From contig NZ_VTRT01000003.1 of the NCBI RefSeq assembly GCF_008274585.1, positions 248,001 to 312,000 on the forward strand: a stretch of 64,000 nt of DNA, in the 5' to 3' direction. The stretch comes from Pedobacter sp. BS3. GTDB taxonomy: Bacteria > Bacteroidota > Bacteroidia > Sphingobacteriales > Sphingobacteriaceae. The notes beneath the pieces were generated by a model, which was given only the letters and a program-made list of their open reading frames with translations, was not told where the DNA came from and did no database searches. The position numbers were made by a program, and so were the translations under genes. How positions within the stretch are numbered: the stretch's first letter is position 1; every line of letters begins with the position of its first letter. Shown in pieces: positions 39,593 to 62,505 of the stretch.

Positions 39593-39667
39593 GAGTGTTA
39601 ATTCAAAAGTCAAAAGTTAAAATTCAAAACCGGCAAGGGCGAAAAATAATCGTACCCTGCTGGTATA

Positions 39668-43405: not shown

Positions 43406-43492
43406 GGATATTTAACAGCACTAAAATTCTTAATGTGGTGGAGGGTGAAGACACTCGCCACAGCGATTTATTATTGTATACCTTCATTAAAT

Positions 43493-44391: not shown

Positions 44392-45822
44392 CTAATGATT
44401 AGCTGTGGTAAACTGGTTCCAGTCATCTGTCCGGAATAACGCTACCGGTAATCCGTTACTTGAATATAAATTGGTTTCCGCCGTTTCGGAAAAGGCAAAT
44501 CTTACCGCTACCGGTTTTTTAACGTTATCGCTAAATACAATAAGCTTATTTTTATCTATCCTGGCTTTTGCCGGATAGAACTTTCTATCTTCCCCGGCAA
44601 TATATAGCTCATTTACATTCTTCCCTTTGATTACTAAATGTTGATTATCCATAAAATAGAAATCTACAATAATCTTATCTCCTTTAACCTGGTGCGATTT
44701 GTATACGGGCGAATACGGGTTTTTATTAATTTTTTTGTAATGTTCTGCCAAAGCGATATCCGCCAGCCGCAAAGCGACCTCTTTTTTACGGGTTGGATGG
44801 ATATCTTTCACATTGGTTACCAAATCTGAGGTGACCACCATTTTTACATCCTGGTTATGCAGCATGGTGTTGGTTTGAGCTTCTCTAAGCAGAGCTGCCT
44901 TAGGCAAATCTTTGTTTTTATAGGTATAAGGGGCTATCTGCGCAAAGTAGAACGGGAAGTTATAGCCCCATTCTTCACGCCATTTTGCAATCATTTTACT
45001 GAATAAAAGTTCATACGAATCCCAGGATACCACATTATTTTCTCCCTGGTACCATAATGCGCCTGCGATGGTGTAACCTGCATAAGGTGCAATCATGCTG
45101 TTCCATGCCCGTCCCGGCAAATTCGGCTTGCGAGGCGCTGTTACCTGTAATTTCGCTTTTTCTGATAACTCTTTATTGGCGGCAATTACTTCCTGCGGCG
45201 TCCATACCTCTGCTGACGTACCTCCCCAACTGGCATTGATGATACCCACAGGTATATTCAGCTCCTGTTGCAATTTCTCAGCAAAAAAATACCCAATGGC
45301 GCTGAACCTGGCCGCCGAGCTTGAATCGCAGGGCATCCAGACATTATATACATCACTTTGGGGATAAGCGGAGGCAATATTGGCAATTTGCAGCAAACGG
45401 ATATTGGGATTGCTGATGGTGGGCAACCTGTCTACCATTTCCTGCAGCTTATCACCTGCGTTCCGCTGCATATTGGACTGGCCGGAACAAATCCACACTT
45501 CGCCCAGCAATACATCCCGCAAAATGAGGGTATCTCCATCTGAAACAGCCGTAATTTCATAAGGCCCGCCGGGCTTGGCAGTGGGCAGATTTATCTTCCA
45601 TTGGGCTTCGCCTGTAGCAACGGTTTTTATAGTGTCTTTCATCCAGCCAGCATGTATCTTTACTTCTCTGCCCGCCCTGGCCCAACCCCAAAACGGTGTA
45701 ATGGTATCGTGCTGAAGCACTAAATGGTCAGAAAAAAAACGCGGCAACCGTAATTGGGCAAAACCGGTTTGTACAATAAACAATGTACCTATAAGTGCTA
45801 TAACATATTTTATATGTTTCAT
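44392..45822 (-). CDS. Sialate O-acetylesterase-like SGNH hydrolase
   Basis: A 476-residue exported carbohydrate esterase. After the signal peptide (MKHIKYVIALIGTLFIVQTGFAQ) it opens LRLPRFFSDHLVLQHDTITPFWGWA, followed by the SGNH serine motif VWICSGQSNMQRNAGD (near residue 113), INASWGGTSAEVWTP and GALWYQGENNV. These are the family markers. It would remove O-acetyl groups from a glycan or polyol; the sialic acid link is only the family name. It sits between the LacI gene and the glycerophosphodiesterase gene. Confidence 0.88.
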   Translation of the reverse strand: MKHIKYVIALIGTLFIVQTGFAQLRLPRFFSDHLVLQHDTITPFWGWARAGREVKIHAGWMKDTIKTVATGEAQWKINLPTAKPGGPYEITAVSDGDTLILRDVLLGEVWICSGQSNMQRNAGDKLQEMVDRLPTISNPNIRLLQIANIASAYPQSDVYNVWMPCDSSSAARFSAIGYFFAEKLQQELNIPVGIINASWGGTSAEVWTPQEVIAANKELSEKAKLQVTAPRKPNLPGRAWNSMIAPYAGYTIAGALWYQGENNVVSWDSYELLFSKMIAKWREEWGYNFPFYFAQIAPYTYKNKDLPKAALLREAQTNTMLHNQDVKMVVTSDLVTNVKDIHPTRKKEVALRLADIALAEHYKKINKNPYSPVYKSHQVKGDKIIVDFYFMDNQHLVIKGKNVNELYIAGEDRKFYPAKARIDKNKLIVFSDNVKKPVAVRFAFSETAETNLYSSNGLPVALFRTDDWNQFTTANH

Positions 45823-45870: not shown

Positions 45871-46869
45871 CTATACGTTTACGTCTATCAATTCACCCTG
45901 GAATTCGTAGATGCCATCCTGCGGCTTTTTACCGGTATCAACCAAAAATTGTACGGCCGATTGGCTCATGTCTTTAAGTGGCTGTTTCACATACGATAAG
46001 GGGTATGGGAACAAACGGTATGCTTCGGCCTCATCGTAACAGATGATACCCAGTTTTTTTGGCACTTCTATTCCATATTTAAGGATAATGGGCAATGTAG
46101 ACATGGCAATTTTGTTGGTAAAACAGCAAAGGGCATCTATTTTATCATCATAAATGGCCTTATGAATCAGCGATTCTATCCGGTTGTTCATATCGGATTC
46201 ATCTACTTCATACACAAATACATTTTCTTTTCCGATGTGTCGCTGAGCTGTTTCGGTGAATCCTCTTTTCCGCTCATGCAGATGGAAAAGATTGGTGCTT
46301 AATCCTATTGCTCCCAGGCGTTTATAGCCCCGTTTCAAAAAATCTTCCACTACCATCTCGGATGCTTTAAAGTTATCCAGGCAGATACTGGTAACGTGCT
46401 GAAACTTAGGGAAGACCCGGTCTATCACTACAAAGGGTATATTCAGATTTTGCAGGTAAGGGATAACGTCTTCGGCGCCATCGGGTATTGCCAGTATAAG
46501 ACCATCCACCTGCCGGGACATCATCACATTCAACAGGCTTTTAAACCGCTCCGGGTCTTCGTAGGCGCTGCCAAATAAAACATTATTCCGATACCGGTTG
46601 GCCTCGTCTTCTATATACCGGGCAATGTAAGAGTAAAAGAAGTTAGAAATATCGGCCACTATCAATCCCAATGTATGTGTTTTATTGTTTTTTAAGCTTT
46701 TGGCTATCTGATTGGGGAAATAGTTTTTTTCACGGGCCAGGTCTAAAATCTTTTTAGCGGTATCGGCATTTATCCGTTTCTGATTTTTTCCATTTAAAAC
46801 ATACGAAACCAGGGCAATAGAAACGCCTAATTCGCCTGCAATGTCTTTCATGGATATTTTTTTCGCCAT
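45871..46869 (-). CDS. LacI family transcriptional regulator
   Basis: A 332-residue repressor-type regulator. The N-terminal helix-turn-helix is ISMKDIAGELGVSIALVSYVLNGK (about residues 5-28), then the hinge, and a periplasmic-binding-like effector domain with THTLGLIVADISNFFYSYIAR and SRQVDGLILAIPDG. It would bind a CG-centred palindrome; two matching sites lie in the susC promoter at 53968-54019. Its position between SusCD-phosphoesterase and the esterase/ABC genes suggests it controls the block. Confidence 0.93.
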   Translation of the reverse strand: MAKKISMKDIAGELGVSIALVSYVLNGKNQKRINADTAKKILDLAREKNYFPNQIAKSLKNNKTHTLGLIVADISNFFYSYIARYIEDEANRYRNNVLFGSAYEDPERFKSLLNVMMSRQVDGLILAIPDGAEDVIPYLQNLNIPFVVIDRVFPKFQHVTSICLDNFKASEMVVEDFLKRGYKRLGAIGLSTNLFHLHERKRGFTETAQRHIGKENVFVYEVDESDMNNRIESLIHKAIYDDKIDALCCFTNKIAMSTLPIILKYGIEVPKKLGIICYDEAEAYRLFPYPLSYVKQPLKDMSQSAVQFLVDTGKKPQDGIYEFQGELIDVNV

Positions 46870-46877
46870 ACTTGGAG

Positions 46878-46976
46878 CCTGTTTAAATTTTATATAACGG
46901 TTTTACAGATTTAATTAATGGACGGTGAAGACACCGTCTATGGCTTCCTGCCGCTGCTGGTGTCACCACCAGCAGC
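46878..46976. repeat. Degenerate inverted-repeat element with two hairpins
   Basis: CCTGTTTAAATTTTATATAA (46878) resembles the outer ends of elements A and B. Hairpins follow: 46921-46938 (GACGGTG/CACCGTC around AAGA) and 46953-46976 (GCTGCTGGTG/CACCAGCAGC around TCAC). No right-hand end is found, so it seems a decayed copy. It separates the phosphoesterase and LacI genes. Confidence 0.6.
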
Positions 46977-47088: not shown

Positions 47089-48645
47089 TTAATATCCCCC
47101 TATTTTAGAATAATCTACTTTTAGCTCGTTGGTTTTATACACGTTGCCAAACCGGTCTGTAGCCCTGACCTCTATATCAGCGCCGGTTACAGGCCCCTGA
47201 ATCTGTCCGATATAAAAATGGTCAAGCGATTTATCAAAATCCGAACCTTTAGCCTTACCGAGTTCTTCGAGATGGTAGTAAGTAGCCCAGAAATCCCTGG
47301 TGGTACGTTTTTGCATATCGCCAACCTTTGTGCCATTTTGAAATAATTCAATTTTCCAGTCGGGGTCTGCGTTCCATACATTGGCCACTACCCACCCATT
47401 ACCGGCCAGGTTAAGATTTACTGTTGCACCAAAAATATAGGTGTATTTATTTGCCGGCCCGTACATTTGCGAAGCATCGTAAGCTCTAATCTGATAATTC
47501 TCATCGTAGCCGGTTGCTTTATATTTCCAGTTTACGATGTTATTACCGTTAACCTGGTAAATAGCATAGCCGTTAGGCGTACCGTCTGAACAGATCGTTG
47601 AATTCCACCACGCACCGCAGGCAGCGCCATGTATATGCTCGTAAATCAGCTTACCATTTACCTGGTGTAAATAATTAGCCTGATAATGCGTATGCCCGGT
47701 CATGATGTGGGCTTGGGAGAATGTGGACAACAGGTTTAAAATCTCATCATGATAACCGATGTGGTCATATTGCCCACCGCTTCGAAAAGGTATATGGGCC
47801 GCATAAATCACCATATTGTCTTTAGGAACCTGCGCTAAATCCTCTTTAAGCCACTCCCACTGTTCATCTGTGATACCGCCCGTATATACCTGCTTAGCGG
47901 TATAGATTACATTGTCCATTACCACAACGTGGGTTTTCCCGCGATTGAACGAGTAATCGGTAGGCCCGAAAGTATCCTGGTAATTCTCCACGCTTTTCTC
48001 ATCGTTGGGCGCTGTTTGCAAGTGGTCGTGGTTACCAATGGTTTGAAAAAACGGCAAACTTTTATTCGACATGGCCGATTTCATGTCACCCCATAGCTCA
48101 GGGGTATCAAAAACAATATCGCCTAAGGTAAAAGCGTACGCGTTTTTATATTTCTTCACCACTTCCTCTATGTCTTTCAGCGTCTCGTTTTTATAGCGTG
48201 CCAGCTCGTTAACATTACGGCACTGCGGATCGGCTACTGCAAACAGGGTAAATTCATTCTCAACGGCTTGCTTAACCAGCGAAAAATCCTGGCGAATCAA
48301 CCGGTCTTTGCTTGTCAGTTTCTCATAAAACTTAGGGCAGTTGTTTGCATCAACCATTACCTTACAATCTGACGGTGTGCTGTAAAATACAAACTTCGCT
48401 TTCTTGTTTCTTACTAACTGATAAATGCCATTATCATCTGTTTTAGCTGCGGTAAAGCCATCGCTAACGACCACTCCTTCTACCGGCTGATTATTTTCAT
48501 CGCTTACCAAACCGTAAAGCGTGGTTTTATCATCCAGCTTCGTTTTTATAGGATTTTCTTCCGGTGGAGGCGCTACAGCGTCTTTATGCTTAGAACATGC
48601 CACCAGAAAGAAAAAACCGATAACTAAAAACACTACTCTCTTCAT
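47089..48645 (-). CDS. Lipoprotein calcineurin-like metallophosphoesterase
   Basis: A 518-residue exported protein. Signal and lipobox FLVAC at residues 13-17; an N-terminal beta-sandwich (LYGLVSDENNQPVEGVVVSDG, about 43-125); a metallophosphoesterase domain with VADPQ (137-141), LGDIVFD (174-180), GNHDH (204-208), AAHIPF (282-287) and GHTHYQ (317-322); then a C-terminal beta-rich domain to the end. All metal ligands appear except that motif I is D-P-Q instead of D-x-H, as in several Bacteroidota relatives. It follows susD by 31 bases, so it likely processes the imported substrate at the cell surface. Confidence 0.9.
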   Translation of the reverse strand: MKRVVFLVIGFFFLVACSKHKDAVAPPPEENPIKTKLDDKTTLYGLVSDENNQPVEGVVVSDGFTAAKTDDNGIYQLVRNKKAKFVFYSTPSDCKVMVDANNCPKFYEKLTSKDRLIRQDFSLVKQAVENEFTLFAVADPQCRNVNELARYKNETLKDIEEVVKKYKNAYAFTLGDIVFDTPELWGDMKSAMSNKSLPFFQTIGNHDHLQTAPNDEKSVENYQDTFGPTDYSFNRGKTHVVVMDNVIYTAKQVYTGGITDEQWEWLKEDLAQVPKDNMVIYAAHIPFRSGGQYDHIGYHDEILNLLSTFSQAHIMTGHTHYQANYLHQVNGKLIYEHIHGAACGAWWNSTICSDGTPNGYAIYQVNGNNIVNWKYKATGYDENYQIRAYDASQMYGPANKYTYIFGATVNLNLAGNGWVVANVWNADPDWKIELFQNGTKVGDMQKRTTRDFWATYYHLEELGKAKGSDFDKSLDHFYIGQIQGPVTGADIEVRATDRFGNVYKTNELKVDYSKIGGY

Positions 48646-48676: not shown

Positions 48677-50491
48677 TTATTTATTTTCCCACAAATAATT
48701 CTGTTTCAAATTGGGATTTCTTGTAATGGCTTCGGTGGGTATTGGTTTCAGGTATTTATATTCTGCCCATACCCGCTGGTAGTTCCATACCAGGTTTTTA
48801 TCAGTATTAAAGGAGAAGGTTTGATTGGCATTACTTGAACTTACGGGAACGGTATTGACCGTTTCGGATGAGCTTACGGCAAAATCAGTAATTCCGTCAC
48901 CATTAAAATCATAGGACGCACCGGGATCTGGTATATAAATACCTGTCCAGGGATTATCGCTGCTATTTAACAAGTCGCCCATGTGCCAGCGCATTAAATC
49001 ATTCCATCGTAATCCCATTTCCAGGCATAATTCGGTAGCACGTTCCCGGCGCACCTCTAAAATCAATGGGTCCGAAATGGTATTTTTGTAATAATCTTTC
49101 AAATAAGGGTCTGCAACGGTTGGATAAATAGAAGTAACTCCGGCCCTGTTGCGCAATAATGTAATGGAGCGAGCCCATTCAGAAATACCCAATTCGCCTA
49201 ATTCCGCTTTCGCTTCCGCGTAGTTTAGCAGCACTTCTGCATACCTTAATATGGGTAAGCTGTTCCAGCTTGCAGCCCGCGAAAGAATATTATCGGCATC
49301 GTCATCTATTGACCATTTTATAGGCTGATAGCCTGTGCGTGTGGTTAACCAACTGGGTGAATAAAGAGCGTTTACCCCATTCCGTGTCATTCTGTACTTG
49401 GGCGATATCACCGTTTGCGCCAGCCTCAGATCCCTGTCAGTAAATTCATCACTGTACGTAATGGTTTTATAATTTGATTTTGAAGTAAAAGGCGTCCCGT
49501 CCTTCATCAAATAGGTATTGATAAACTTTTTGGTAAGCGACGCTTTACTTCCGTAGGTAGGCGAATAATACACCCAGGAAAGATCATGAAATGTAGAAAG
49601 TCCCTTACTAAACTGCCTTCCCCAGATTATTTCTGTGGTATTGAGCTTTTCTGAAGTAAACAAGCTTCTGTAAGCCGTTTCCTTGTTGCCATTCACCAAA
49701 GAAAATGTTCCCGACTGCATAATCTCTTCTGACGCGGAAATGGCGGCTCTTAAAAACTTCTTTATATTTTCATCCCTGTTCGTCCAGGCTTGCCCGGTAG
49801 ATGGATCTACCTGGTGATACGTCCGGTAGGTTCCTTCAAATAAACAAACCCTGGATTTGAAAGCCAATGCCACCCATTTATTTATGGCCGTTCCCCCGGC
49901 GCTGTATTTATCGGCTCCTGAACAATTCTGAGAGGCAAAGTCTAAATCTTCCAATATTTTATCCATTACAAACTCCCTGGAATCTTTGGGTTTATTCAGC
50001 GCCTCCGTATCATTTGATTTGATAACCTGGTCGTAGAACGGAACCGCACCAAAGGTAGCAACCTTGTCATAGTAAAACCAGGCACGCCAAAACCGGCCGA
50101 CGCCTTCATAGTGATTGTATACTTCATCGCTGATCTTACCTTTTAACTTTGTCATGTTGTTTAAGAAATAATTAATATTTCTAAGGTTGCTCCACGATCC
50201 TTCGGTCCAGCCTCCCTGGTTACCGGGTGACACATTACCGTCAGGGCGTAGCAGGTCGGTAGGAATCTGTACCGCACAATAATCTGCGTTGATATCATTA
50301 TAGCCGATGGTTGTTGCGGATGGCGTCATATTTTGCAGAAAGCCATTGGCATATAGTTCAAGGTCAGATTCAGACTCAAAGAAATTATCCGAGCTAATGG
50401 AGTCATACGTATCTCTTTCCATAAACTTTTTACAGGATACAGCGGATATTATCAGCATGACCACCATGATATGTCTAATTATCTTATTCAT
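48677..50491 (-). CDS. susD: SusD/RagB family nutrient-binding lipoprotein
   Basis: A 604-residue surface lipoprotein that binds the ligand and caps the SusC barrel. The leader MNKIIRHIMVVMLIISAVSC ends in a lipobox. The helical TPR-like core includes FYYDKVATFGAVPFYDQVI, LNYAEAKAELGE and ERATELCLEMGLRWNDLMRWHMGDLL near the end, all SusD hallmarks. It starts 19 bases after susC and is followed by the phosphoesterase gene. Confidence 0.95.
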   Translation of the reverse strand: MNKIIRHIMVVMLIISAVSCKKFMERDTYDSISSDNFFESESDLELYANGFLQNMTPSATTIGYNDINADYCAVQIPTDLLRPDGNVSPGNQGGWTEGSWSNLRNINYFLNNMTKLKGKISDEVYNHYEGVGRFWRAWFYYDKVATFGAVPFYDQVIKSNDTEALNKPKDSREFVMDKILEDLDFASQNCSGADKYSAGGTAINKWVALAFKSRVCLFEGTYRTYHQVDPSTGQAWTNRDENIKKFLRAAISASEEIMQSGTFSLVNGNKETAYRSLFTSEKLNTTEIIWGRQFSKGLSTFHDLSWVYYSPTYGSKASLTKKFINTYLMKDGTPFTSKSNYKTITYSDEFTDRDLRLAQTVISPKYRMTRNGVNALYSPSWLTTRTGYQPIKWSIDDDADNILSRAASWNSLPILRYAEVLLNYAEAKAELGELGISEWARSITLLRNRAGVTSIYPTVADPYLKDYYKNTISDPLILEVRRERATELCLEMGLRWNDLMRWHMGDLLNSSDNPWTGIYIPDPGASYDFNGDGITDFAVSSSETVNTVPVSSSNANQTFSFNTDKNLVWNYQRVWAEYKYLKPIPTEAITRNPNLKQNYLWENK

Positions 50492-50510: not shown

Positions 50511-53500
50511 TTAAAAACTTAGGTTAAAGCCCAATGTAAAGGTTTTCAGCATCGGGTAGGAAAACCCGTTTCCTGTGCCGTTCAAGCCGGATGTTGTGGA
50601 GTTCGCGAAATCACTGTCACCAGATTCTATCACTTCAGGATCAAACATATCGGTGTATTTATACATGGGCGAATACGTCCATAGATTTTCTGCCGACAGG
50701 TACACCTTAAAGACATCAACTCCTATTTTTCGCGATATACGTTTTGGTATGGTATAATCTACCGTGATATTTTTCAAACGTATATAAGAAGCATTTTGGA
50801 GATAATGGGTATTTTCCCAGGTAAGCGGGCCATCATTTCTATTCGCTGCCAGCGATACCCGGCGTGTCCAGTATGGGTCTTTATCCATATTGGTTACCTG
50901 CCAGTTATCCGTAGATTTATCTACCTGCACAATGTTGTCACCGGTTTGCGATTTCATGAGAAATCCATAAGCCCTGTTATGCTGGCCCCAGAAAAATCCG
51001 GATTCAGTCCAGGGATACCAGTTTCTTTTTAACACGCCCTGGAAGAACGATGAAATACCAACGCCTTTCCAGTTTGCGGACAGGTTAAACCCGAACTGGT
51101 ATCGCGGCGTAGTATTACCGATAATTTCCATATCGCCATGACTGCTGAGCGTACGGCTGCCTTTTGTCATAATGCCATCGCCATCAACATCTACAAATTT
51201 TAAGTCTCCGGCGTAAGCCTGAAACATCTCCCCGTTCTTAAAAAAATTATACGCGGGCCCGTTATTGGCTTCGGCATTACTTGCATAGATACCCGCCGTT
51301 CTGAATCCCCATATCTCTCCTAATTCCATGCCTTTGTAATAGGTTGTCAGGTCACCGTTAGCATTGTAGTAATCGGTCACCCAGCTCCGGCTATCCTCCC
51401 ACATCATGGCTCTCACGCTGTAATTAAACGGCGATTTAGAAATCATAAATTGGTCTCTCCAGGTCAGGCTGGCTTCCCAGCCCCTGGTTTTCAGGCTGGC
51501 AAAATTGCCTTTTGGTGCGGCACTGCCTAATACCTGCGGTAAATTAGGCCCTACAGTATATAGATCATCTGTATAACGGTTATAGATGTCGCCGGTAAAG
51601 CTTAACCTGCTTTTCAAAAGCTCTATATCGGCTCCAAGGTTATAGGTTAATACTTTTTCCCAGGTAATACCATCAGGAATTAAATTGGGAACTTCGGTAT
51701 AGGGCACCTTATTTCCGTTGACCAGTACCGAGCTTTTGCTGAAGTTCATGACTTCCAGGAATTGGTACGGACTGATATTGGCATTTCCTAAGGAACCTAC
51801 GCTGCCCCGGATCTTAAGGTTATTCAACCACGGGCCTACGTTGTTTTTAAACCATTTTTCTTCTGAGACCAGCCAGCCCAGCGAAGCGGAAGGAAAGAAG
51901 CCCCATTGTGAATCTTTCGGAAATTTGGATGAGCCATCGTACCTGAAGCTAAATTCGCCCAGGTAACGGTTCTTAAAATTGTAATTGATACGTGAAAACA
52001 CACCCATTAATCCCCAGGTATTACCGCCCGACAGCGTGGAGTAGTACTCGCCGTCCATCAGCGTAAAGCTTGGTTTTGAAGGATAAAGATTTCCTGTACG
52101 GTACGTTTTTTGATTTCTGTAATGACTGTCTTCCAAATTCCATCCGGCCACCAGGTTCAGCTCATGCCCGCCCGAAAGCTTTGGGGTAAATGTGCCCACT
52201 ACATTGGATGATATATAATCGGTGTTATATCGCCAGTCTTCAAACGATGATTCATTATAATCTTTTCCCGAAGCCGTTATACCGGTGTAAAACGTGTATA
52301 AATTCTCTGCTCGTTGCCGTTGCGAACGCATGGATTTATAGGTAAAATCGGCCCGTACGTTAAATACTTTGGGGACAACATCAATAATCAGTGACGATGT
52401 ATTGCCAACCTCGATATCTTTATTTTCCTGGAAAGACGTGCCTTCCGCAAAAGCGGCATAACCAACTTTTGCCGCGGTTTGCGTCCACGTTCCGTCAGGA
52501 TTTTTAATATTGGCAACCGGGAACCCGAAAGCGTCTATTTGCCGGCCTACTACGTTCTGACCGTAATGAATCATGGGTTGCAGGTAATTCCCCTTAATCA
52601 GGCTGGTGTTATTTTCAAAAGTCAGCCAGGGGCGAAGCTTTATAGAACCTTTAGCTCTCAGATTATATCGCTTAAAATCTTCATTTCCTACTTTATAGAT
52701 ACCGCTTTGGTCATATATTCTTCCGGAAACATAATAATTAACCAAATCCTGGCCGCCCTGGAAATTTAAGGAGTGCACATACGAATAGTTATGGTTTTTA
52801 TAAAACTCCTTTAACCAGTTTGTATTTCCATAGTACACATAATTCCCGTTTGCATCTACATTATAGTTATCTAACGTAGGATCGTTCTGCCGTCTCTTTA
52901 ATTCTGTAAACCAGCTATCGGAATAAGGGAAATAATTATTCATTAAAGAAGGTACTGTAGCGGTAGGAGAAGAATTCAGGTACGATTCTCTGAATCCCTC
53001 TACCCATTGAACCGGATCACTCACGATATTATCTTCCCATAAAACGGTTCTTTGTAAAAATGAGGTGGAATTGGCGTACGATATTTTAGTTGTTCCCGCT
53101 TTTGGTTTGCGGGTGGTGATTAAAATCACACCAAAAGCCCCCCTGGCCCCATAAACCGCGGCAGACGAAGCGTCTTTAAGCACACTGATGCTCAATATGT
53201 CATCGGGATTAACCGTATTGATATCACCTTCCGCCCCATCAATCAAAATCAAGGCCCCGCCACCCTGGCCCAACGTATTACTGTACTGACCACCGCCCTC
53301 TTTTCTGGCTTTAAAGCTGGTATTCTGCCCCCGAATAGTCAGATCGCCACCGTGATCAGGTTTGCCGTCTACCTGTACAATGTTAAGACCGGGAACCTGG
53401 CCTTGCAATGCACGGGTTATGTTGGGCGTAGGCCGGTCTTTAAGATCGTCACCTGAAATCTCAGCCACAGCTCCCACAACCGATTTCTTTTTCAGTGTTC

Positions 53501-53870
53501 CGTATCCTACAACCACAACCTCGTCCATAAACAGATTATCGCTTACCATCGTTGTTGTAAGCGTAGCCTGACCCTGGTAAACCATTTCCTGGGTTTTATA
53601 TCCCAAATAGGAAAATACCAGCGTATCCTGCCTGTTCAAAGCAATGGCGTATTTACCATCCTTATCAGACGAGGTGGCTTTGTTAGTACCTTTTACCTTG
53701 ATGACCGCACCCTGGATAGGCAAATTGTCTTCTCTCGATAAAATTGTTCCATGTACGGTAGTTTGGGCATAAAGCGTCCCTTCTCCTACAAGCATGATGA
53801 AACACAAGGAGGCATTTCGAAATAAGTGTAAACACCTCTTATTTCGAAGTAGAAAATAAAAGTATTTCAT
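50511..53870 (-). CDS. susC: SusC/RagA family TonB-linked outer membrane protein
   Basis: A 1119-residue TonB-dependent transporter. A long N-terminus with signal (ASLCFIMLVGEGTLYAQ) leads the carboxypeptidase-like domain (VHGTILSREDNLPIQGAVIKVKGTN) and the SusC-specific MDEVVVVGYGTLKKKSVVGAVAEI. The plug has ALQGQVPGLNIVQVDGKP, ILIDGAEGDINTVNPDDILSISVLKDASSAAVYGARGAFGVILITTRK. The barrel ends YPMLKTFTLGFNLSF. No ECF sensor domain is present, consistent with control by LacI. First gene of the susC-susD-phosphoesterase unit. Confidence 0.96.
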   Translation of the reverse strand: MKYFYFLLRNKRCLHLFRNASLCFIMLVGEGTLYAQTTVHGTILSREDNLPIQGAVIKVKGTNKATSSDKDGKYAIALNRQDTLVFSYLGYKTQEMVYQGQATLTTTMVSDNLFMDEVVVVGYGTLKKKSVVGAVAEISGDDLKDRPTPNITRALQGQVPGLNIVQVDGKPDHGGDLTIRGQNTSFKARKEGGGQYSNTLGQGGGALILIDGAEGDINTVNPDDILSISVLKDASSAAVYGARGAFGVILITTRKPKAGTTKISYANSTSFLQRTVLWEDNIVSDPVQWVEGFRESYLNSSPTATVPSLMNNYFPYSDSWFTELKRRQNDPTLDNYNVDANGNYVYYGNTNWLKEFYKNHNYSYVHSLNFQGGQDLVNYYVSGRIYDQSGIYKVGNEDFKRYNLRAKGSIKLRPWLTFENNTSLIKGNYLQPMIHYGQNVVGRQIDAFGFPVANIKNPDGTWTQTAAKVGYAAFAEGTSFQENKDIEVGNTSSLIIDVVPKVFNVRADFTYKSMRSQRQRAENLYTFYTGITASGKDYNESSFEDWRYNTDYISSNVVGTFTPKLSGGHELNLVAGWNLEDSHYRNQKTYRTGNLYPSKPSFTLMDGEYYSTLSGGNTWGLMGVFSRINYNFKNRYLGEFSFRYDGSSKFPKDSQWGFFPSASLGWLVSEEKWFKNNVGPWLNNLKIRGSVGSLGNANISPYQFLEVMNFSKSSVLVNGNKVPYTEVPNLIPDGITWEKVLTYNLGADIELLKSRLSFTGDIYNRYTDDLYTVGPNLPQVLGSAAPKGNFASLKTRGWEASLTWRDQFMISKSPFNYSVRAMMWEDSRSWVTDYYNANGDLTTYYKGMELGEIWGFRTAGIYASNAEANNGPAYNFFKNGEMFQAYAGDLKFVDVDGDGIMTKGSRTLSSHGDMEIIGNTTPRYQFGFNLSANWKGVGISSFFQGVLKRNWYPWTESGFFWGQHNRAYGFLMKSQTGDNIVQVDKSTDNWQVTNMDKDPYWTRRVSLAANRNDGPLTWENTHYLQNASYIRLKNITVDYTIPKRISRKIGVDVFKVYLSAENLWTYSPMYKYTDMFDPEVIESGDSDFANSTTSGLNGTGNGFSYPMLKTFTLGFNLSF
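53816..53848. other. Stem-loop inside the first codons of susC
   Basis: Arms TTCGAAATAAG (53816-53826) and CTTATTTCGAA (53838-53848) pair perfectly over 11 bases with an 11-base loop. They lie within codons 8-19 of susC, an unusually long N-terminal extension before the signal peptide. A hairpin so near the start could modulate translation. Confidence 0.45.
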
Positions 53871-53967
53871 TGTTCATTTCTGTTTTAGGTCTATTAGTTT
53901 GTTGTTAACAGCAAGTCGTTAATCTCAACCGGTAAGAACCTATCTGGCTAATTTTTTAATGTAATTG

Positions 53968-53987
53968 GTTAAACGTTTAAACAATGC
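53968..53987. promoter_or_regulatory. LacI-type operator, proximal copy
   Basis: GTTAAACGTTTAAACAATGC contains the CG-centred palindrome TTAAACGTTTAA. It is repeated exactly 32 bases away (54000-54019), three helical turns. It lies next to the predicted start of susC transcription. Confidence 0.75.
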
Positions 53988-53991
53988 GCTT

Positions 53992-54021
53992 CAAATATAG
54001 TTAAACGTTTAAACAATGCAA
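53992..54021 (-). promoter_or_regulatory. Predicted susC promoter
   Basis: On the minus strand TTG (54019-54021) and TATATTTG (53992-53999) are separated by 19 bases, a full match to the Bacteroidota -33/-7 pattern. The leader would be about 115 nt. Confidence 0.6.
54000..54019. promoter_or_regulatory. LacI-type operator, distal copy
   Basis: Identical 20-base copy of the site at 53968. It occupies the spacer between the predicted -33 and -7 elements of the susC promoter, where binding would block RNA polymerase. The upstream lipoprotein genes on the plus strand may share the control. Confidence 0.75.
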
Positions 54022-54147
54022 GTATTTTTTTATTTTTTTGATTTGGATATTCAATTATTTTTTTCTATGCTTGCATCAGCAAGTCGAAAAATTTCAACTA
54101 TAAGAAATATTTGGTTTTAGCAATGTCTAACCAATAATTCTTATTAT

Positions 54148-55464
54148 ATGAAATTTCAAAAACCACTCATCACTTTACTCCTTCTTTCAGGGTTCGCTTT
54201 ATTTTTCTCTTGTAAAGACAATAATAAAGAGCTCTTTCTGAAAAGGAATTTAGAAGAATTATCTTTTGACTATACCGAAAGCAGCCGGGAATTTACTGTT
54301 CGTGCCACCGGAGAATGGTCAATTGAAGTACCTTCTGAATATTCATGGATTAAAGTAGAACCATCTTCAGGGATTGGAGATGGCGTAACCTATCAAAAGG
54401 TTATTGTAACCTGTAGCCGGAATACGGCAGATTCCCGCGAAGGTACCATTTATTTAAATGGGGCCAATCAATCAAACGTTCCTATTAAGGTTAATCAAAA
54501 AGACGGCTTATTTGAATGGACAACTTATTCTAACGGTGCTCATTTAGAATTGCAGAATGCCTTAATTGTAGGGCAGGCTTCTACATCAACCATCAATATT
54601 CCTTATAGTAAAGCTGTGGGAAACGAATCTTTTCCCGTTACCGTTACGCTGTCAGGTAAAGGAGCATCGGGCTTATCTGTAGGAACTACAACGGTAACCA
54701 TTCCTGAAGAGGGCGATGGCTTTATTCGTATCCCTGTATCGGGCACCCCCAACACACAGGGATATATACAAATAGGTGTTAAAATAGACAACCAGGATTT
54801 TGGCCAGATCAATTCCATTGCCGCTATGGGTAATACTGTTATAGAACAGCATTTTAATAAATTCTTGTGGGGCGGCGATTGCATTGGTAATAAAGAAGGT
54901 ATCACTACGGTAAAAGCTACCGCCGAAATGTCTTTAGCAGACGAAACCAAAATTTGTGCTATTGGCGATAACGGAGCTAATGGGTCAGGTGTTACATCAA
55001 CTATCCGAAGCAGCAATATTAGTTTCTATAAAGAAATAGAAATGGAAAACTGGTTCGGATTGCGGAATTATATGCGCCCCGGATACATCCAATTAGGCGC
55101 TGCCAGTGCAACAGCTACCGAATTTGGCTCGCTTATTACTCCCGGACTTGACTTGCCCGGTACTCAAGATCTGTTGGTAACATTCAGGGCAGCCATTTAT
55201 AATAACCCGGCGCCCGCAACTATCCTCGTTGGTCTCATTCCTAAAAATACCGATGGTATTAAAACTACCAATGTAAACCTGATTAGTAATAAGGAAAGTA
55301 TCCCGCTAAATATCAGAGCACAAACCTGGGTAAACATTACCTGTGTGGTTAAAAACGCCACTAACGCATCAAGCCTGGTTATCTCTTTACCGGAAGAGCT
55401 TAACCAGGGCGGTACCGTGCAGGCGTCACGGGTATATATTGACGATATAGTAGTAACTTATTAA
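54148..55464 (+). CDS. BACON-domain surface lipoprotein
   Basis: A 438-residue lipoprotein: signal MKFQKPLITLLLLSGFALFFSC with lipobox; BACON-like domain at about 34-118 (LEELSFDYTESSREFTVRATGEWSIEVPSEYSWIKVEPSSG, CSRNTADSREGTIYL), a beta-sandwich of about 120-232, and a C-terminal module of about 235-438 starting HFNKFLWGGDC and containing ENWFGLRNYMRPGYIQLG, SLITPGLDL and DDIVVTY. That module also occurs in the next gene. It probably binds carbohydrate at the surface. Divergent from susC, with the LacI sites between. Confidence 0.82.
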   Translation: MKFQKPLITLLLLSGFALFFSCKDNNKELFLKRNLEELSFDYTESSREFTVRATGEWSIEVPSEYSWIKVEPSSGIGDGVTYQKVIVTCSRNTADSREGTIYLNGANQSNVPIKVNQKDGLFEWTTYSNGAHLELQNALIVGQASTSTINIPYSKAVGNESFPVTVTLSGKGASGLSVGTTTVTIPEEGDGFIRIPVSGTPNTQGYIQIGVKIDNQDFGQINSIAAMGNTVIEQHFNKFLWGGDCIGNKEGITTVKATAEMSLADETKICAIGDNGANGSGVTSTIRSSNISFYKEIEMENWFGLRNYMRPGYIQLGAASATATEFGSLITPGLDLPGTQDLLVTFRAAIYNNPAPATILVGLIPKNTDGIKTTNVNLISNKESIPLNIRAQTWVNITCVVKNATNASSLVISLPEELNQGGTVQASRVYIDDIVVTY

Positions 55465-55474
55465 ACGATACAAC

Positions 55475-56911
55475 ATGAAAATTTTAAAAAATATTCAAGC
55501 CATACTCCTGTTATTTGTATGTGTATCTACACTAAACTCCTGCGAGGACAAAGGCGAGATTACCATTACCAATAAGTTTGCGGAAGATGTTCCGGGAAAC
55601 GTACAGTTATTGGGGTATACCAGTAAAAGCATAACGGTAGCCTGGGATTTTAATGAAAAGGCGACGTCTTATACGGTACAACTTTTAGCCAGTGCTGATG
55701 CTGATAATCCATTGTACACTTACACTACTTCTACCGAGGATTATTTTGAATTCAGTAATTTAAATGCCCGGACATCTTATTATGCCCGGGTAAGGGCAAA
55801 TTTCCCCTACTCGGAAACTTCAAAATGGGTGTATATCATGAACAATGATAGCCGGGCCCGGATTATCCCGGCTTACGGTATTGTTGATGACGATTTCGAG
55901 ATCACCTATATTAAACTGGTCAATGCTTCTTCATCTACGGTAACGGCCGAATGGTCTTTCACTGATTTTCTTGACATGGACAGTGAAATAAATAACAAAT
56001 TCACGCTAGGACTTTATAAAGATGCTGCCTGTACTGATCTGTATATCAGCTGGGAAAATATTTCAGGGTTATTCACGGTATCTACAGTAAGTTTACCCAA
56101 GCCATTACGCTTTACGTTCTCCGGCTTAGATGCCAATACCGAGTATTATCTCAAGATAAAGGATGAAACCAATAAAATGGAATCAAATGTGCTAAAAGTA
56201 AAAACATTAGCGGCTATTGCTGCTCCAAGCGGTAATCCTTCCAAAGCAGATGATATCTTATTATCGCAGGATTTTTCCAAATTTATTCATGGAGGCGATA
56301 TACTTTTTTCTGCGGCTGGCTATACTGTTAGCACAGCATTGGGAAGAGGCACATGGTCTCCGGCAACGGGAGCAAATCCTGTAAAAGCAGACCTGGGCCA
56401 GAATGTATGTGATCTGACTACTGAGTTTAACGTATTTGACGGAGGTAACGTAGCAACGCCCTATACTGTTGGAACAGGCATGGAAAACTGGGGCAAAAAT
56501 GGCAATACCTCTACCCGACCGGGTTACATAAAAATTGGCGGAAGCGGTGCTGTTGCAGCATTATACACGCCTAAACTAAGCAAGGTAGGTTCGTTTACAT
56601 CTGTTACAGTGAGCGTTAAAGCAGCTGTATATTCTGAAGGAGCAAATAATTACTGCGACAACATTAAAATCGAAGCTATTGAAGGCGCCACGTTTTCGGC
56701 TAAAGGCGCTATAAGCAATTTAAGCAGCATCACGGTAAAAGATTCAAAAACCGTTAATATTGCCGGCTCACTTCACAAATTTGATGAATATTCGGTAACC
56801 TTAAATAATATAACACCCGAAACACGCATAGCCATATCCTCCGATCCGGCCGGTGTCAGCGGAAACAAGACCCGGTTCTTATTAGATGATGTTATTGTGA
56901 AAATAAAATAG
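55475..56911 (+). CDS. Fibronectin type III surface lipoprotein
   Basis: A 478-residue lipoprotein (signal to lipobox LNSC near residue 23). An FN3-like domain spans about 41-121 (LLGYTSKSITVAWDFNEKATSYTVQLLAS), then a second beta domain (about 140-245), then a C-terminal module (265-478) beginning DFSKFIHGGDIL with ENWGKNGNTSTRPGYIKIG, LYTPKLSKV and DDVIVKIK, homologous to the end of the preceding protein. It starts 10 bases after that gene, so both are made together. Likely a ligand-binding partner of the neighbouring SusCD. Confidence 0.8.
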   Translation: MKILKNIQAILLLFVCVSTLNSCEDKGEITITNKFAEDVPGNVQLLGYTSKSITVAWDFNEKATSYTVQLLASADADNPLYTYTTSTEDYFEFSNLNARTSYYARVRANFPYSETSKWVYIMNNDSRARIIPAYGIVDDDFEITYIKLVNASSSTVTAEWSFTDFLDMDSEINNKFTLGLYKDAACTDLYISWENISGLFTVSTVSLPKPLRFTFSGLDANTEYYLKIKDETNKMESNVLKVKTLAAIAAPSGNPSKADDILLSQDFSKFIHGGDILFSAAGYTVSTALGRGTWSPATGANPVKADLGQNVCDLTTEFNVFDGGNVATPYTVGTGMENWGKNGNTSTRPGYIKIGGSGAVAALYTPKLSKVGSFTSVTVSVKAAVYSEGANNYCDNIKIEAIEGATFSAKGAISNLSSITVKDSKTVNIAGSLHKFDEYSVTLNNITPETRIAISSDPAGVSGNKTRFLLDDVIVKIK

Positions 56912-57071: not shown

Positions 57072-57742
57072 CTATTTTACATTAGGGCTTATTTCTATTA
57101 ACACAGGATAATGATCTGAAGGCAGCTTATCCTCATAGCTGTCCATAAGAATGTTATATTGCTCTATTTTAAACCGGGAGCCTGTAACAAAAATATGATC
57201 TATAGGGCCTTTAGCGGGTGAATTAACGTTAAAATGGTTGAAGGATCCACCGGATGAATACCTGAACGTTGCAAGCTCAAACGCATCTCTTAACAGTCCC
57301 GAATTATTCAGCAGTGAATAATCCGGGCTGTTCCGGTCAAAGTTAAAATCGCACAGATCCGTTCAAACTTGGCATCCCAACCTTTGCTTTCCGTATCGGG
57401 CGTTGCCGATAACCAGAAATGCCCGCTGTTTTGTAAGGTAAGCCGGTTTTTATTGTATAAAATTCCGGTAGGGATTTTAGTAAACACACCAATACTATCA
57501 AACCTGGGCAGTGTGTTGATTAAATAGCCGGCCATATCGGCCTCAGTTTCCTGTAAACCTATAATATCGAACTGGTATTTTTCAATAAGGTTTACTACAA
57601 GTAATTTTCTGTCTTCCCACAAATTTCCAATACCGGTGGCCACGTGACCACGAAGATTATAACTGGCTACTACCAGATCCTGACCTTTTGCCTGCAATAA
57701 ATACAGGCAAAAGATGATTATTGCAGATATAGTACTTTTCAT
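57072..57742 (-). pseudogene. Endonuclease/exonuclease/phosphatase family gene, internal deletion and frameshift
   Basis: The N-terminal part (57308-57742) has a signal peptide (SAIIIFCLYLLQAKGQ), LVVASYNLRG and DIIGLQETEAD, and reaches WDAKFERICA. Frame then changes: from GAT at 57350 to the TAG at 57072 another frame encodes DFNFDRNSPDYSLL, GPIDHIFVTGSRF and LPSDHYPVLIEISPNVK, the family's C-terminal part. The NTH-x-DH segment normally between RICAW and TGDFN, perhaps 40-60 residues, is missing. In the first frame translation ends at 57308. The product cannot be active. Homologues are exported DNases or phosphodiesterases. Confidence 0.85.
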
Positions 57743-57854
57743 ATAACTGGTTATTATCGGTTAGTAAAACGGGGTCAGTAAAAACTGAGCGGGTTGGGAG
57801 AGATAATTGAATGAGGGAGACTAAAAAATCGACAAAGTCAATCAGTTTACAGTC

Positions 57855-57884
57855 ACGCTTCCCCCGAAGTATCGGGGGAAGCGT
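57855..57884. repeat. Strong intergenic hairpin, with TTCGACAGGCTCAGGATG repeat nearby
   Basis: Perfect 13-base arms ACGCTTCCCCCGA/TCGGGGGAAGCGT around AGTA. A CATCCT/AGGATG inverted repeat (CATCCTTCGACAGGCTCAGG and on) at 57903-57925 follows, an interspersed form common in many genomes. The 57743-57975 gap contains no gene. Confidence 0.6.
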
Positions 57885-57975
57885 CTGTAACCATGATAAA
57901 CTCATCCTTCGACAGGCTCAGGATGACTATAAAGGATTGTTTGCCTCTCTCATTCAATCTAATTTGTATTTAAGA

Positions 57976-58557
57976 TCAGTTTTTATAAATGGCAAAATCA
58001 TCCAGGCTTAACCTGCCGTTAGCAATAGACGGATCATTCTTATCGCTACCTAAAGCGAGCTTGACAATGCGAAAACGCACCTGTCCTTTAATATCTAAGT
58101 TATAGGTGGCCTGCTGCTTTACTTTACTTACCGCCTCAATAACTTCGCCGGTTTGTTGCCAGCTTTTGCCATTATCGGTAGAATACTCCAGACGAAATTT
58201 ACTGGACTTATCTGCTTTAGTAGCATACGAGCTATACCAGAAGGTTACTTTTGATGCACCATCCGGCACGTCAAAATTCATTCTTAAATAGCACTCTTTG
58301 GTATTATTGCCCAGCATCCGGACTGCACTGGAACCTGTCACCGGCTTATCATTAGCAAAACTGTCTATTCTTGCACCATATAAAGTCCAGGAACCACTTT
58401 TTAATTCAAGGTTTTGCTTACCATACCCGGCCTCTCCGGCTGGTGCATTCTCAAAGCTTTCCGGAAAATTTGTATACAATGTACCTTTTTGAGCTTTCAA
58501 TGAGCTTATACTAACGGATAAAATTAGAACTGTTAATAGCGTTTTAATAGTTTTCAT
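57976..58557 (-). CDS. Secreted beta-sandwich protein (module shared with the DUF5689 protein)
   Basis: A 193-residue exported protein with signal MKTIKTLLTVLILSVSISSLKAQ. The mature domain has FPESFENAPAG, KPVTGSSAVRMLGN, FDVPDGASKVTFWYSSY, FRLEYSTDNGKSWQQTGE and LSLDDFAIYKN. These align, in the same order, with residues about 266-431 of the DUF5689 lipoprotein at 60535. It has no lipobox or T9SS tail; it looks like a jelly-roll or concanavalin-like binding module. Last gene before the pseudogene on the minus strand. Confidence 0.75.
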   Translation of the reverse strand: MKTIKTLLTVLILSVSISSLKAQKGTLYTNFPESFENAPAGEAGYGKQNLELKSGSWTLYGARIDSFANDKPVTGSSAVRMLGNNTKECYLRMNFDVPDGASKVTFWYSSYATKADKSSKFRLEYSTDNGKSWQQTGEVIEAVSKVKQQATYNLDIKGQVRFRIVKLALGSDKNDPSIANGRLSLDDFAIYKN

Positions 58558-58626
58558 GTGTGTGTTATTTCAAATAATAATTAATAGGGGTTATTTAATT
58601 TTTAAGAACGATAATAAAAGCGGGCA

Positions 58627-60420
58627 TTAAAGCTTCATTATCTTTTTACTGATAACAGGATTACCCTGATTAACCAGCGTAGCTACGTATATACCATTTT
58701 GAGCAGATACAGGTACCTGCACCACATTTTGCCCGCTGTTTAACCGGATCAGCTTCCGGTAAATTATTCTGCCCGAAAGATCCGTTAGCAGAAAATCCGA
58801 TGCTGCTGTTTTTTCTGATGTAAATGATATATTCAAAACATCTCCGTTAAAAAAAGCGTTAAACGCCGGTTGCGTTAAGCCCGATTTTACGGGTATAATG
58901 CCAGACAATTCCGCGTTACCGTTGTCATCTACCTGGCGCAGTTGATAGTAATTTGTTCCGTTAACCGGATTAACATCTGTAAAGCTGTATGATTGCGGCT
59001 CATTGGTAGTGCCTTTGCCCTGCACAATACCTAACACCAGCGGCTCCTGCCCCTCCCTTATCCGTAATACTTCAAAATAAGCGTTATTCTTTTCTGACGC
59101 CGTTTGCCAGTTCAGGAGAATATTACTCCCATTGCTTTTCCCTGTGAAGGAGGTAAGATTTACGGGCAATGTGCTTTCTACCGTACCATCTAAAGACAGT
59201 ACATAGCTATTTGAAGCATACTGGTCTGATACACCAATATTGGTAGAACCGGTGGAATTATTAGAACCGCTAACATACACCCTGAAATAAACAGTAGTAC
59301 CCGCAACAACATCTTGTAAGGCATTAACCGATGATAAATCTATTGAGGGCGCATAGATACCGTATGTATTATCTTCCGGCAACAGGTAAGGTTCTGCCAG
59401 CTTTACAAAGTGCGTACCATCTACACTATATTTCCAGTACCATACCTGCGATCCTCCGGCGCTCCGTCTCACTTTATAATTCAGCTTACTTAGGGAGATA
59501 TTATAACCAGTCTTCGCTGTAGCGCTGAATGTAAAATACATATCGTTGGCTACAGCTATGGCCGTGTCTGCAAAGTCATTGGTTGAAGCAAACTTAGCAA
59601 TAGCACTAAATGCCCGGGAATAAGTGGCGGTATTATTCAACCCGTCTCCACGTGATAAAGTTGCTGTTTCCAGATTACTATTATTCAGGCTGGCAGCAAT
59701 ACTAACTTCATTTCCCGCTGTTGATGGGTTACCAAATTGCCACGCCAATAAAGAAGCAGATGTGGATAGATTTTCTACTGAACCACCAACTGAAAGAGAA
59801 AAATCGGCTGATGTTCCGGCTGCAGAACGCCCGATAGCTGTGGTTCCTGTACCACTATTACCAGCGTATAGTCTTAAATAAACTGTAGTTCCGGCCGGAA
59901 GATCCTGCAAAGCCGGTATGCCAGACAGATTTACTGTAGGCTGAACAGCACCTTCGCCGGTTGGTGGATTCGCAGAAACATCAACAGGATCGTTAATTTT
60001 ATTAAAATGAGTTCCGTCTAAGCTGTATTTCCAGAAATAGAGCTTTGCACCGGCCGCACTGCTTAACCTTAATTTATAAATAATATTGCTTAAAGAGGCC
60101 TTATAACCAGATTTCACTGTTACATTGAACCCAAAGTACATATCCTGGGCAACCATACCGGTTGTATCAGTAGCTGTACCCACGCGGCTTGAAACAAAGC
60201 CCCGTGGCAAAGTAGTACTTGGCGCCATCCAACCTGCACCTCTCGTCAAATCAGTTACTGTTAACCCATCATTTGCATACGAAGCCGGAGCACTGGCCTC
60301 ATTACCAACACTTTCCGGAGTGGAGAATTGCCAGCCTACAATCTGCGAATAGGCTGCATTACGGATAAATCCTCCCAGCAAAACTGCCAGGATAAGAACA
60401 CGTACGTAATTTTTCATCAT
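58627..60420 (-). CDS. T9SS-secreted protein with two WQFG-type repeat modules
   Basis: A 597-residue exported protein: signal (VRVLILAVLLGGFIRNAAYSQ); module 1 about 27-216 (IVGWQFSTPESVGNEASA); module 2 about 225-415 (LLAWQFGNPSTAGNEVSI); each with FWKYSLDGTHF or YWKYSVDGTHF and LQD-AGTTVY-R-Y. An FN3-like linker (LPVNLTSFTGKSNGSNILLNWQTASEKNNAYFEVL, about 419-511) and a type IX secretion sorting domain (LNISFTSEKTAASDFLLTDLSGRIIYRKLI...NGIYVATLV, about 523-597) follow. The protein would be exported through T9SS and anchored or released at the surface. The module recurs in the neighbouring protein at 60535. Confidence 0.85.
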   Translation of the reverse strand: MMKNYVRVLILAVLLGGFIRNAAYSQIVGWQFSTPESVGNEASAPASYANDGLTVTDLTRGAGWMAPSTTLPRGFVSSRVGTATDTTGMVAQDMYFGFNVTVKSGYKASLSNIIYKLRLSSAAGAKLYFWKYSLDGTHFNKINDPVDVSANPPTGEGAVQPTVNLSGIPALQDLPAGTTVYLRLYAGNSGTGTTAIGRSAAGTSADFSLSVGGSVENLSTSASLLAWQFGNPSTAGNEVSIAASLNNSNLETATLSRGDGLNNTATYSRAFSAIAKFASTNDFADTAIAVANDMYFTFSATAKTGYNISLSKLNYKVRRSAGGSQVWYWKYSVDGTHFVKLAEPYLLPEDNTYGIYAPSIDLSSVNALQDVVAGTTVYFRVYVSGSNNSTGSTNIGVSDQYASNSYVLSLDGTVESTLPVNLTSFTGKSNGSNILLNWQTASEKNNAYFEVLRIREGQEPLVLGIVQGKGTTNEPQSYSFTDVNPVNGTNYYQLRQVDDNGNAELSGIIPVKSGLTQPAFNAFFNGDVLNISFTSEKTAASDFLLTDLSGRIIYRKLIRLNSGQNVVQVPVSAQNGIYVATLVNQGNPVISKKIMKL

Positions 60421-60480
60421 CTTTTAATTTTTAATTGTTTACAACTGTTTTTTACCTTCTTGGGATTTATTAATTCTACT

Positions 60481-60492
60481 TAAAACGTTTTA
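60481..60492. promoter_or_regulatory. Possible LacI-type palindrome
   Basis: TAAAACGTTTTA is a perfect 12-base CG-centred palindrome 61 bases upstream of the T9SS protein gene. It differs from the susC sites (TTAAACGTTTAA) by one base per half. It could be a weak site for the same or a related regulator, or chance. Confidence 0.3.
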
Positions 60493-60534
60493 GCATAAGG
60501 TTATCATTTTATTATATCTGTGTTATTTGTAGTG

Positions 60535-62454
60535 TTACTGAGAAAGAGAACCGCCTATGCTCAGCACATCAGTGGCAGTACCCGCAGGTGTGCGACCGAT
60601 AGAGAAAGACCCTGAGCCGATATTAGAAAAACCCCAGCAATACATTCTTAATGTTACCGTAGTACCTGCCGGTATATTTTGCAATTCTGATGTTTGATAG
60701 ATATAGTATGCCGGCATTTCAGTTCCTTCCGTGTCTGTCCCTTCATAGCTCATATCCCCTGTACCCAGGGTTTCATGGAAGTTGACACCATCTAAGCTGT
60801 AATACCATTTGTGATTTCTTGCCCCGGCAGCACTTCGCCTTAGCTTGACGTTAATGGCAGAAAGAGATAGCTTATATCCCGACTGTACGATAAACTTTAC
60901 CTGGTAATATACATCCTGGCTAAGAGCCAGGGCCTTGGTTGAGGTGATAATGGTTCCCCCGGCAGTTGAGGCAAAGCTTCTTACTAACGACGACGCGGTT
61001 AAGCCCGGACCACGTTCAAGCACGGCATTGCTAAGTCCGGCGTGGGTTGTTGTTGAGGTTTTGCTTACTTCATTGCCTGCTGTAGCCGGAGTTCCGAATT
61101 GCCAGCCTAAAACCGTTGCGTATTCCGGTACCGGGTTGGTTATAGGGCCACCTGCTTCCGGATTTTTGTAAACCGCAAAATCGTCCATGCTGAAACGCCC
61201 GTTCTGGTTATTGGTGGTAGAGTTTCCGATGCCTATTTTGCCTATCCGGAAACGCACCGGCCCTCTGAGATCCATCAGGAAGGTAAATTGCTTTTTCACT
61301 TTGCTTATGGTTAGGATATCCTCTCCTACCTGGCTCCAGGTTATTCCCTGATCCTGTGAATACTCCAGGCGCCAGGTAGAACCGAGATCTGCTGATGCGC
61401 CATAGGAACCGGCCCATACCGTTACTTTTGTGGCTCCGTTAGGAAGATCATAGTTCATGGTACACCAGGAGCTTGTAGCAGAGCTTCCGACCAACCGTAA
61501 AGCATATTGACCTGTAACCGGTAAATCGTTAGCTGTATTTCCTACATATATATTTTGAAGCGTGTAATTTCCGGTACTGAAATTTCCTGTTTTGGTAGAG
61601 TAGCCATCAACAAATAAAGCTGCCTCTCCAGACTCAAAACTTTCCGGAAAACCTGTATATATCCTTCCGCTCTCATCTTCAATACCATCTGCATTAACTA
61701 TCCATAATTGCTTCCTGTGTGTATCGTCAGCATCGCTGTTCCACCTGGCGACAGCTGTATAAGAAGCATTTAAGGCAACGGCTTTATCGGCAAAAGTGGC
61801 CGTAGGCTCAGTGTGTAAAATACCGGTGCTACCGGTTGGCTCTGTAATCACAACATCGCCCTGCATTACGTCTCCCGCGGCATCTACGTTGGCTATTTTT
61901 ATCAGTGTGCCCTCATAATCGTCAAACTTTTCATTCAGCGTTTCGAGCGATACCAGTGTTGGCTCGGCCAGCCGGTTTTCTGCTACTTTGGTAACTCGTT
62001 CAATTGAAGATACATGAATTTGTAACGCACCTTTATTCCGGGTAATGGTTGCACCGTTTACATTGACCACTACAGAATCACCAATTTTATAAGGGATATT
62101 GGTGGCCTGCGTAACCGAAACTTCAATTCCCCTCTTCAATGTCCTGCTGGTTTGTTGTATGGCAAATACTCCCGGGGGAATGTTTCCCGATGTAGCATCT
62201 GAAACAACCACCCCGGTTATTTTGTCCGCACCATCCATATTACTTGTATTCAGCACCACATCAGCCCCTTTATAAATTTTGCGTACATCCAATATAGATA
62301 TGTATTCATTAGGGGTTCCCGAAGCCGGGAATACATCTTTTTTCAGGCAGGACGCCAGCGTCAATACACATCCAAACAGCACTAAGAACAGGCTATATTT
62401 GTGTATTGCGCTTTTATTGACCTTTCTTATTTTAACAAGCTTCAAATTATTCAT
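60535..62454 (-). CDS. DUF5689 lipoprotein with sandwich and WQFG modules
   Basis: A 639-residue lipoprotein (lipobox LASC near residue 36). A DUF5689-like domain spans about 48-255 (YISILDVRKIYKGADVVL, GVVVSDATSGNIPPGVFAIQ, IGDSVVVNVNGATI); a beta-sandwich spans 266-431 (FPESFESGE, WRLEYSQDQGITWSQVGED, GRFSMDDFAVYK), the same as the 193-residue protein; a WQFG module spans 447-639 (LGWQFGTPATAGNEVSK), the same as in the T9SS protein. DUF5689 genes usually sit beside SusD in Bacteroidota. It follows susD by 51 bases, same strand, and probably binds or trims the SusCD substrate. Confidence 0.85.
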   Translation of the reverse strand: MNNLKLVKIRKVNKSAIHKYSLFLVLFGCVLTLASCLKKDVFPASGTPNEYISILDVRKIYKGADVVLNTSNMDGADKITGVVVSDATSGNIPPGVFAIQQTSRTLKRGIEVSVTQATNIPYKIGDSVVVNVNGATITRNKGALQIHVSSIERVTKVAENRLAEPTLVSLETLNEKFDDYEGTLIKIANVDAAGDVMQGDVVITEPTGSTGILHTEPTATFADKAVALNASYTAVARWNSDADDTHRKQLWIVNADGIEDESGRIYTGFPESFESGEAALFVDGYSTKTGNFSTGNYTLQNIYVGNTANDLPVTGQYALRLVGSSATSSWCTMNYDLPNGATKVTVWAGSYGASADLGSTWRLEYSQDQGITWSQVGEDILTISKVKKQFTFLMDLRGPVRFRIGKIGIGNSTTNNQNGRFSMDDFAVYKNPEAGGPITNPVPEYATVLGWQFGTPATAGNEVSKTSTTTHAGLSNAVLERGPGLTASSLVRSFASTAGGTIITSTKALALSQDVYYQVKFIVQSGYKLSLSAINVKLRRSAAGARNHKWYYSLDGVNFHETLGTGDMSYEGTDTEGTEMPAYYIYQTSELQNIPAGTTVTLRMYCWGFSNIGSGSFSIGRTPAGTATDVLSIGGSLSQ

Positions 62455-62505
62455 GAATATTTTATTTCAGAAATTGATTAACTCTTAAATTCCATTTACC
62501 AAAAC

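Follow-up and report, generated by a model that had tools for sequence, protein, structure and literature searches.

Which regulator controls a SusC-SusD uptake operon, and from which sites, is the question raised by a minus-strand gene cluster within a 64,000-nucleotide stretch of Pedobacter sp. BS3 DNA (hereafter the window). The promoter region of susC carries two exact copies of the 20-mer GTTAAACGTTTAAACAATGC, at positions 53968-53987 and 54000-54019 of the plus strand, whose starts lie 32 bp apart and which are separated by 12 bp. A preliminary description of this DNA proposed that these copies are identical LacI-type operators, one between the two promoter elements and the other beside the predicted start. 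The sequences, their spacing and their positions on the minus strand are all borne out by the following features:

54019-54021, minus strand: TTG, the -33 element of the susC promoter (promoter pattern match)
53992-53999, minus strand: TATATTTG, the -7 element (Bacteroidota consensus TAnnTTTG)
54000-54019, minus strand: operator O1, which occupies the spacer between the -33 and -7 elements of the susC promoter and has its palindrome, TTAAACGTTTAA, at 54001-54012; TTTAAACGTTTAACTATAT is identical in Sphingobacterium faecale
53968-53987, minus strand: operator O2, with its palindrome at 53969-53980, near the predicted transcription start and 32 bp from O1; kept in S. faecale

Housekeeping promoters of Bacteroidota follow the pattern TTG-N17-23-TAnnTTTG. 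The minus strand upstream of susC reads TTG-CATTGTTTAAACGTTTAAC-TATATTTG from 54021 to 53992, with a spacer of 19 bp (54018-54000). This is one of eight exact matches to the pattern in the window, and the sole one in its intergenic region. The -7 element agrees with the TAnnTTTG box reported for the phylum (PMC9723704). O1 fills the spacer, O2 (53987-53968) begins 5 bp past the -7 box, and susC starts at 53870.

Each 20-mer is built on a perfect 12-bp palindrome with CG at its centre, and the 3′ flank common to both copies is non-palindromic. LacI/GalR operators are even palindromes of 16-22 nt with a central CG; here the perfect 12 bp are joined by an imperfect extension, and at the orthologous locus L049 the palindrome is perfect across 18 bp. 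A central CG is typical of LacI-family motifs (PMC4052901). No third copy of GTTAAACGTTTAAACAATGC was found in the window with up to three mismatches allowed, and the number of matches expected there by chance is 0.01. In pattern searches of the whole 4.81 Mb genome, both GTTAAACGTTTAAAC (one mismatch or fewer) and exact TTAAACGTTTAA are confined to these two places in the susC promoter. When one mismatch to TTAAACGTTTAA is permitted, 29 sites are found genome-wide versus 18 for the reversed control, so the single-mismatch sites elsewhere are mostly background and were set aside.

The genes on either side of this promoter, including the candidate regulator, are as follows:

50511-53870, minus strand: susC, TonB-dependent outer-membrane transporter, first gene of the operon (Pfam)
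48677-50491, minus strand: susD (Pfam SusD_RagB)
47089-48645, minus strand: calcineurin-like phosphoesterase (Pfam MetallophosN/C)
45871-46869, minus strand: LacI-family repressor, predicted binder of both operators (Pfam LacI and Peripla_BP_3; operator co-occurrence)
44392-45822, minus strand: SASA-type carbohydrate esterase (domain match)
43493-44374, minus strand: glycerophosphodiester phosphodiesterase (GDPD) family protein (domain match)
42211-43263, minus strand: periplasmic sugar/polyol-binding protein (best solved relative 4ry9, 4e-78)
40658-42184, minus strand: ABC transporter ATPase, RbsA/XylG type
39668-40612, minus strand: ABC transporter permease
38135-39613, minus strand: long-chain polyol dehydrogenase, closest to mannitol 2-dehydrogenase (1lj8, 1e-128)
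37195-38115, minus strand: PfkB sugar kinase, fructokinase-like (2qhp, 8e-51)
54148-55464, plus strand: divergent BACON-domain protein; synteny kept in S. faecale, control by the operators uncertain
55475-56911, plus strand: divergent fn3-domain protein, in the same cluster as the BACON gene

The protein encoded at 45871-46869 has the architecture of the LacI/GalR family, with an N-terminal LacI helix-turn-helix joined to a periplasmic-binding-like sensor domain (PF00356 at 37.9 bits against a cut-off of 27, as well as PF13377 and PF00532). Its hinge reads AKSLK, and close orthologues carry A[K/Q]SLK, in keeping with the pairing of a hinge leucine with a central CG in the operator. Its relatives share the recognition helix V-S-x-A-(L/V)-V-S-Y-V.

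These relatives were collected by a scan of genome contigs with an alignment of five orthologues, which yielded 80 proteins with 38-60% identity to the Pedobacter protein. A genome-contig scan queried with the single protein returned no relatives, and the one other genome of the genus that was covered had no LacI match at E<=1e-60. The 400 bp flanking each of the 80 lacI genes on either side (64 kb in all) contain 77 sites with one mismatch or none, versus 62 in the other 1.40 Mb of these loci. This is an enrichment of 27-fold, and the same test applied to 59 permuted half-site palindromes gave a mean of 0.4 sites and a maximum of 3. Such a site is present at 47 of the 80 loci; the other 33 include the closer relatives L079 and L081, and in several of them the variant TTTAATCGATTAAA replaces the operator. 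In many orthologues the motif takes the form TTTAAACG[T/A]TTAAA just outside lacI. Sphingobacteriaceae orthologues (50-60% identity; named records include Sphingobacterium and Parapedobacter) keep the transporter, dehydrogenase and kinase neighbours wholly or in part. Regulator and motif co-occur across genomes in the manner of a local regulon. The motif TTTAAACG[T/A]TTAAA was not found in the relevant literature searched, where one match was unrelated.

It is strongly supported by these comparisons that the 20-mers are LacI-family operators, and that they can be assigned, by association, to the LacI protein encoded at 45871-46869, because the motif accompanies this kind of regulator across the phylum and no paralogue in this genome has its recognition helix. 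The tie between the operators and the LacI gene of the same block, as first proposed, is upheld on the same grounds. The preliminary description also set this locus apart from most SusCD loci, which it assigned to ECF/anti-sigma or hybrid two-component regulators. A LacI gene is indeed present in the block, but the contrast was overstated, because LacI adjoining SusC is common among the 80 relatives, many of which have a SusC homologue within 10 kb of lacI. The idea that LacI control of SusCD would be exceptional is therefore not upheld by the relatives in this set.

Ten further LacI-domain genes are present in the genome, and cross-binding between LacI paralogues is possible, so one must consider whether another family member, such as a global regulator, binds these operators. 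However, the V-S-x-A-(L/V)-V-S-Y helix occurs in just one of the 11 LacI-domain proteins, that at 45871-46869; the x-A-Y recognition code is found in none of the ten others, most of which carry x-S-R, and the motif tracks the 45871-46869 subfamily in other genera. A global regulator is unlikely in particular because the exact palindrome occurs nowhere else in the genome, and we judge binding by a different LacI-family protein to be very unlikely overall. It is likewise conceivable that the two 20-mers have no regulatory role, having arisen by chance or by a recent duplication in AT-rich DNA, as their identity extends beyond the palindrome and could mean duplication or conversion. Against this stand the low chance expectation given above, the presence in the diverged relative S. 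faecale of both sites, each with its own flanks, and the overwhelming association of the motif with lacI across the phylum (77 sites versus the permuted mean). We give this explanation almost no credence.

A further alternative accepts the assignment of the protein and questions the sign of its action. The nearest solved relatives of LacI 45871-46869 by score are CcpA proteins, and certain members of the family (CcpA, Cra) can act as activators when bound upstream. Nevertheless, O1 lies in the core promoter spacer and O2 at the start site, in both of which a bound protein should keep polymerase away, and engineered Bacteroides LacI promoters of the same layout are repressed (PMC9259675). Activation in place of simple steric repression is thus highly improbable, and repression remains the reading that we develop below.

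The placement of the operator can be followed in relatives. In 50 promoters of the set, including that of susC, the TAnnTTTG box begins 12-18 bases beyond the first base of the palindrome, and the operator therefore sits inside the -33/-7 spacer; the gene that follows is lacI itself in some cases and a susC homologue in others. The S. faecale locus (L075) shares its gene order with the window over the whole span that runs from the divergent fn3 and BACON genes to the kinase, and its SusC and SusD are 75% and 74% identical. Its promoter retains TTTAAACGTTTAACTATAT unchanged and keeps both operators, the second being 22 bp on, exactly one helical turn closer, since the DNA between the two sites is shorter by exactly 10 bp. 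In Sinomicrobium weinanense (L119) the second operator is again at 32 bp. A second operator within 35 bp is rare (3 of the 50 promoters), and most relatives have a single one, so that pairing is not a family-wide feature. Intersite distances of LacI-family regulators peak at 13, 22 and 32 bp, and Ravcheev et al. (2014) attributed the latter two peaks to cooperative binding along a single helical face (PMC4052901). Both the 32 bp observed here and the 22 bp of S. faecale fall in these preferred classes. The suggestion that this geometry would give tight repression agrees with the layout expected for it and with a known preferred spacing of the family (PMC4052901).

The same region contains other repeats. 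The sequence CGACTTGCTG occurs at 53909-53918 and 54077-54086, 168 bp apart and flanking the susC promoter, with seven copies genome-wide; GACTTGC is also found twice at aligned positions in the S. faecale promoter region, and the pair is possibly a site for a second regulator. An inverted repeat, TTCGAAATAAG...CTTATTTCGAA, spans 53810-53846 inside the signal-peptide codons of susC, where the surrounding 91-nt region folds with z = -3.06.

Considered together, the 20-mers are very probably operators of LacI 45871-46869, by which this protein would repress its own susCD operon. A repressor dimer on O1 would cover the -33/-7 spacer and exclude RNA polymerase, and a second dimer on O2 would cover the start site. 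The centres of O1 and O2 are 32 bp, or about three helical turns, apart, so the two dimers would share one face of the helix and could bind cooperatively. To switch the operon on, a sugar alcohol or a sugar derived from it would have to bind to the repressor.

lacI is the fourth gene in the minus-strand run from susC to the PfkB kinase, and its location inside the operon would probably make the circuit self-limiting. No TTG-N17-23-TAnnTTTG match is present in the gap before lacI or in that before the binding-protein gene, which favours one long transcript and hence autoregulation, although this is not proof and a separate promoter may exist within the 219-bp leader of lacI. Each of these gaps holds one REP-like hairpin element. 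The loop sequence GTGTCTTCAC, flanked by variable self-complementary stems, defines this REP-like family and occurs five times in the window (12874-12883, 37119-37128, 37151-37160, 43445-43454 and 46925-46934; 0.09 expected), places that include the gaps of this operon, and 99 times in the genome, where the reversed control has 2 copies; the copies frequently form inverted pairs spaced by about 30 bp.

Assignment of the operon to a sugar alcohol is most likely, as judged from the relatives of three of its proteins: the binding protein is closest to 4ry9, an entry that we take to hold a hexitol, the dehydrogenase to mannitol 2-dehydrogenase, and the kinase to fructokinase. The most likely function of the circuit is therefore repression of an auto-regulated operon for susCD, phosphoesterases and polyol uptake until the sugar alcohol or its product becomes available. 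Because the operon also encodes an esterase and two phosphoesterases, its substrate may plausibly be a sugar alcohol in polymeric or esterified form, perhaps with a phosphodiester linkage as in teichoic acids; both suggestions are made with low confidence. The same caution applies to the inducer, which might be either the polyol in free form or its ketose product. A broader proposal, that a phylum-wide LacI subfamily (x-A-Y, operator TTTAAACG[T/A]TTAAA) has spacer placement as its general rule and that SusCD here takes up a polyol phosphodiester polymer, is offered tentatively, with our judgment leaning against it. If true, such a polymer would be unusual among the kinds of substrate assigned to SusCD loci.

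The mechanism is an ordinary one for which the comparative evidence is unusually clean; the regulon is new and its kind is known. As in the local repressor regulons of the LacI family (PMC4052901), even central-CG palindromes lie upstream of a sugar operon, at one of the favoured spacings and with the regulator in or beside its target operon; the motif TTTAAACG[T/A]TTAAA sets this case apart from that survey, which took in one Bacteroidetes group. KdgR, UxaR, UxuR and UxmR of Bacteroides (PMC3878776), which is in the same phylum, likewise belong to the LacI family and regulate sugar catabolism, but theirs are uronate pathways, and this operon combines susCD, phosphoesterase and polyol genes. 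Synthetic Bacteroides promoters engineered with tandem operators for E. coli-type LacI and its derivatives carry one operator in the -33/-7 spacer and a second close to the start; good control needed both, and single operators were mostly inadequate (PMC9259675). The natural layout on this susCD operon is thus the engineers' solution for tight LacI control. SusR, hybrid two-component (HTCS) and ECF-sigma systems likewise serve SusC-SusD uptake operons, whereas control here would rest with a predicted cytoplasmic repressor, so that the signal would be a small imported molecule. The SusCD operon gains an assigned regulator, operator and promoter, and the motif beside lacI, often in the -33/-7 spacer, predicts regulons in many Bacteroidota.

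A second SusCD cluster lies next to this one (57308-63996; L155:2029-2676) and looks decayed: all that is left of its SusC is a C-terminal fragment of about 215 aa, and its Exo_endo_phos gene (57308-57742) has just 144 aa. Between two genes of this cluster, at 60481-60492, is a perfect palindrome, TAAAACGTTTTA, which has two mismatches relative to the operator and was left out of the operator set.
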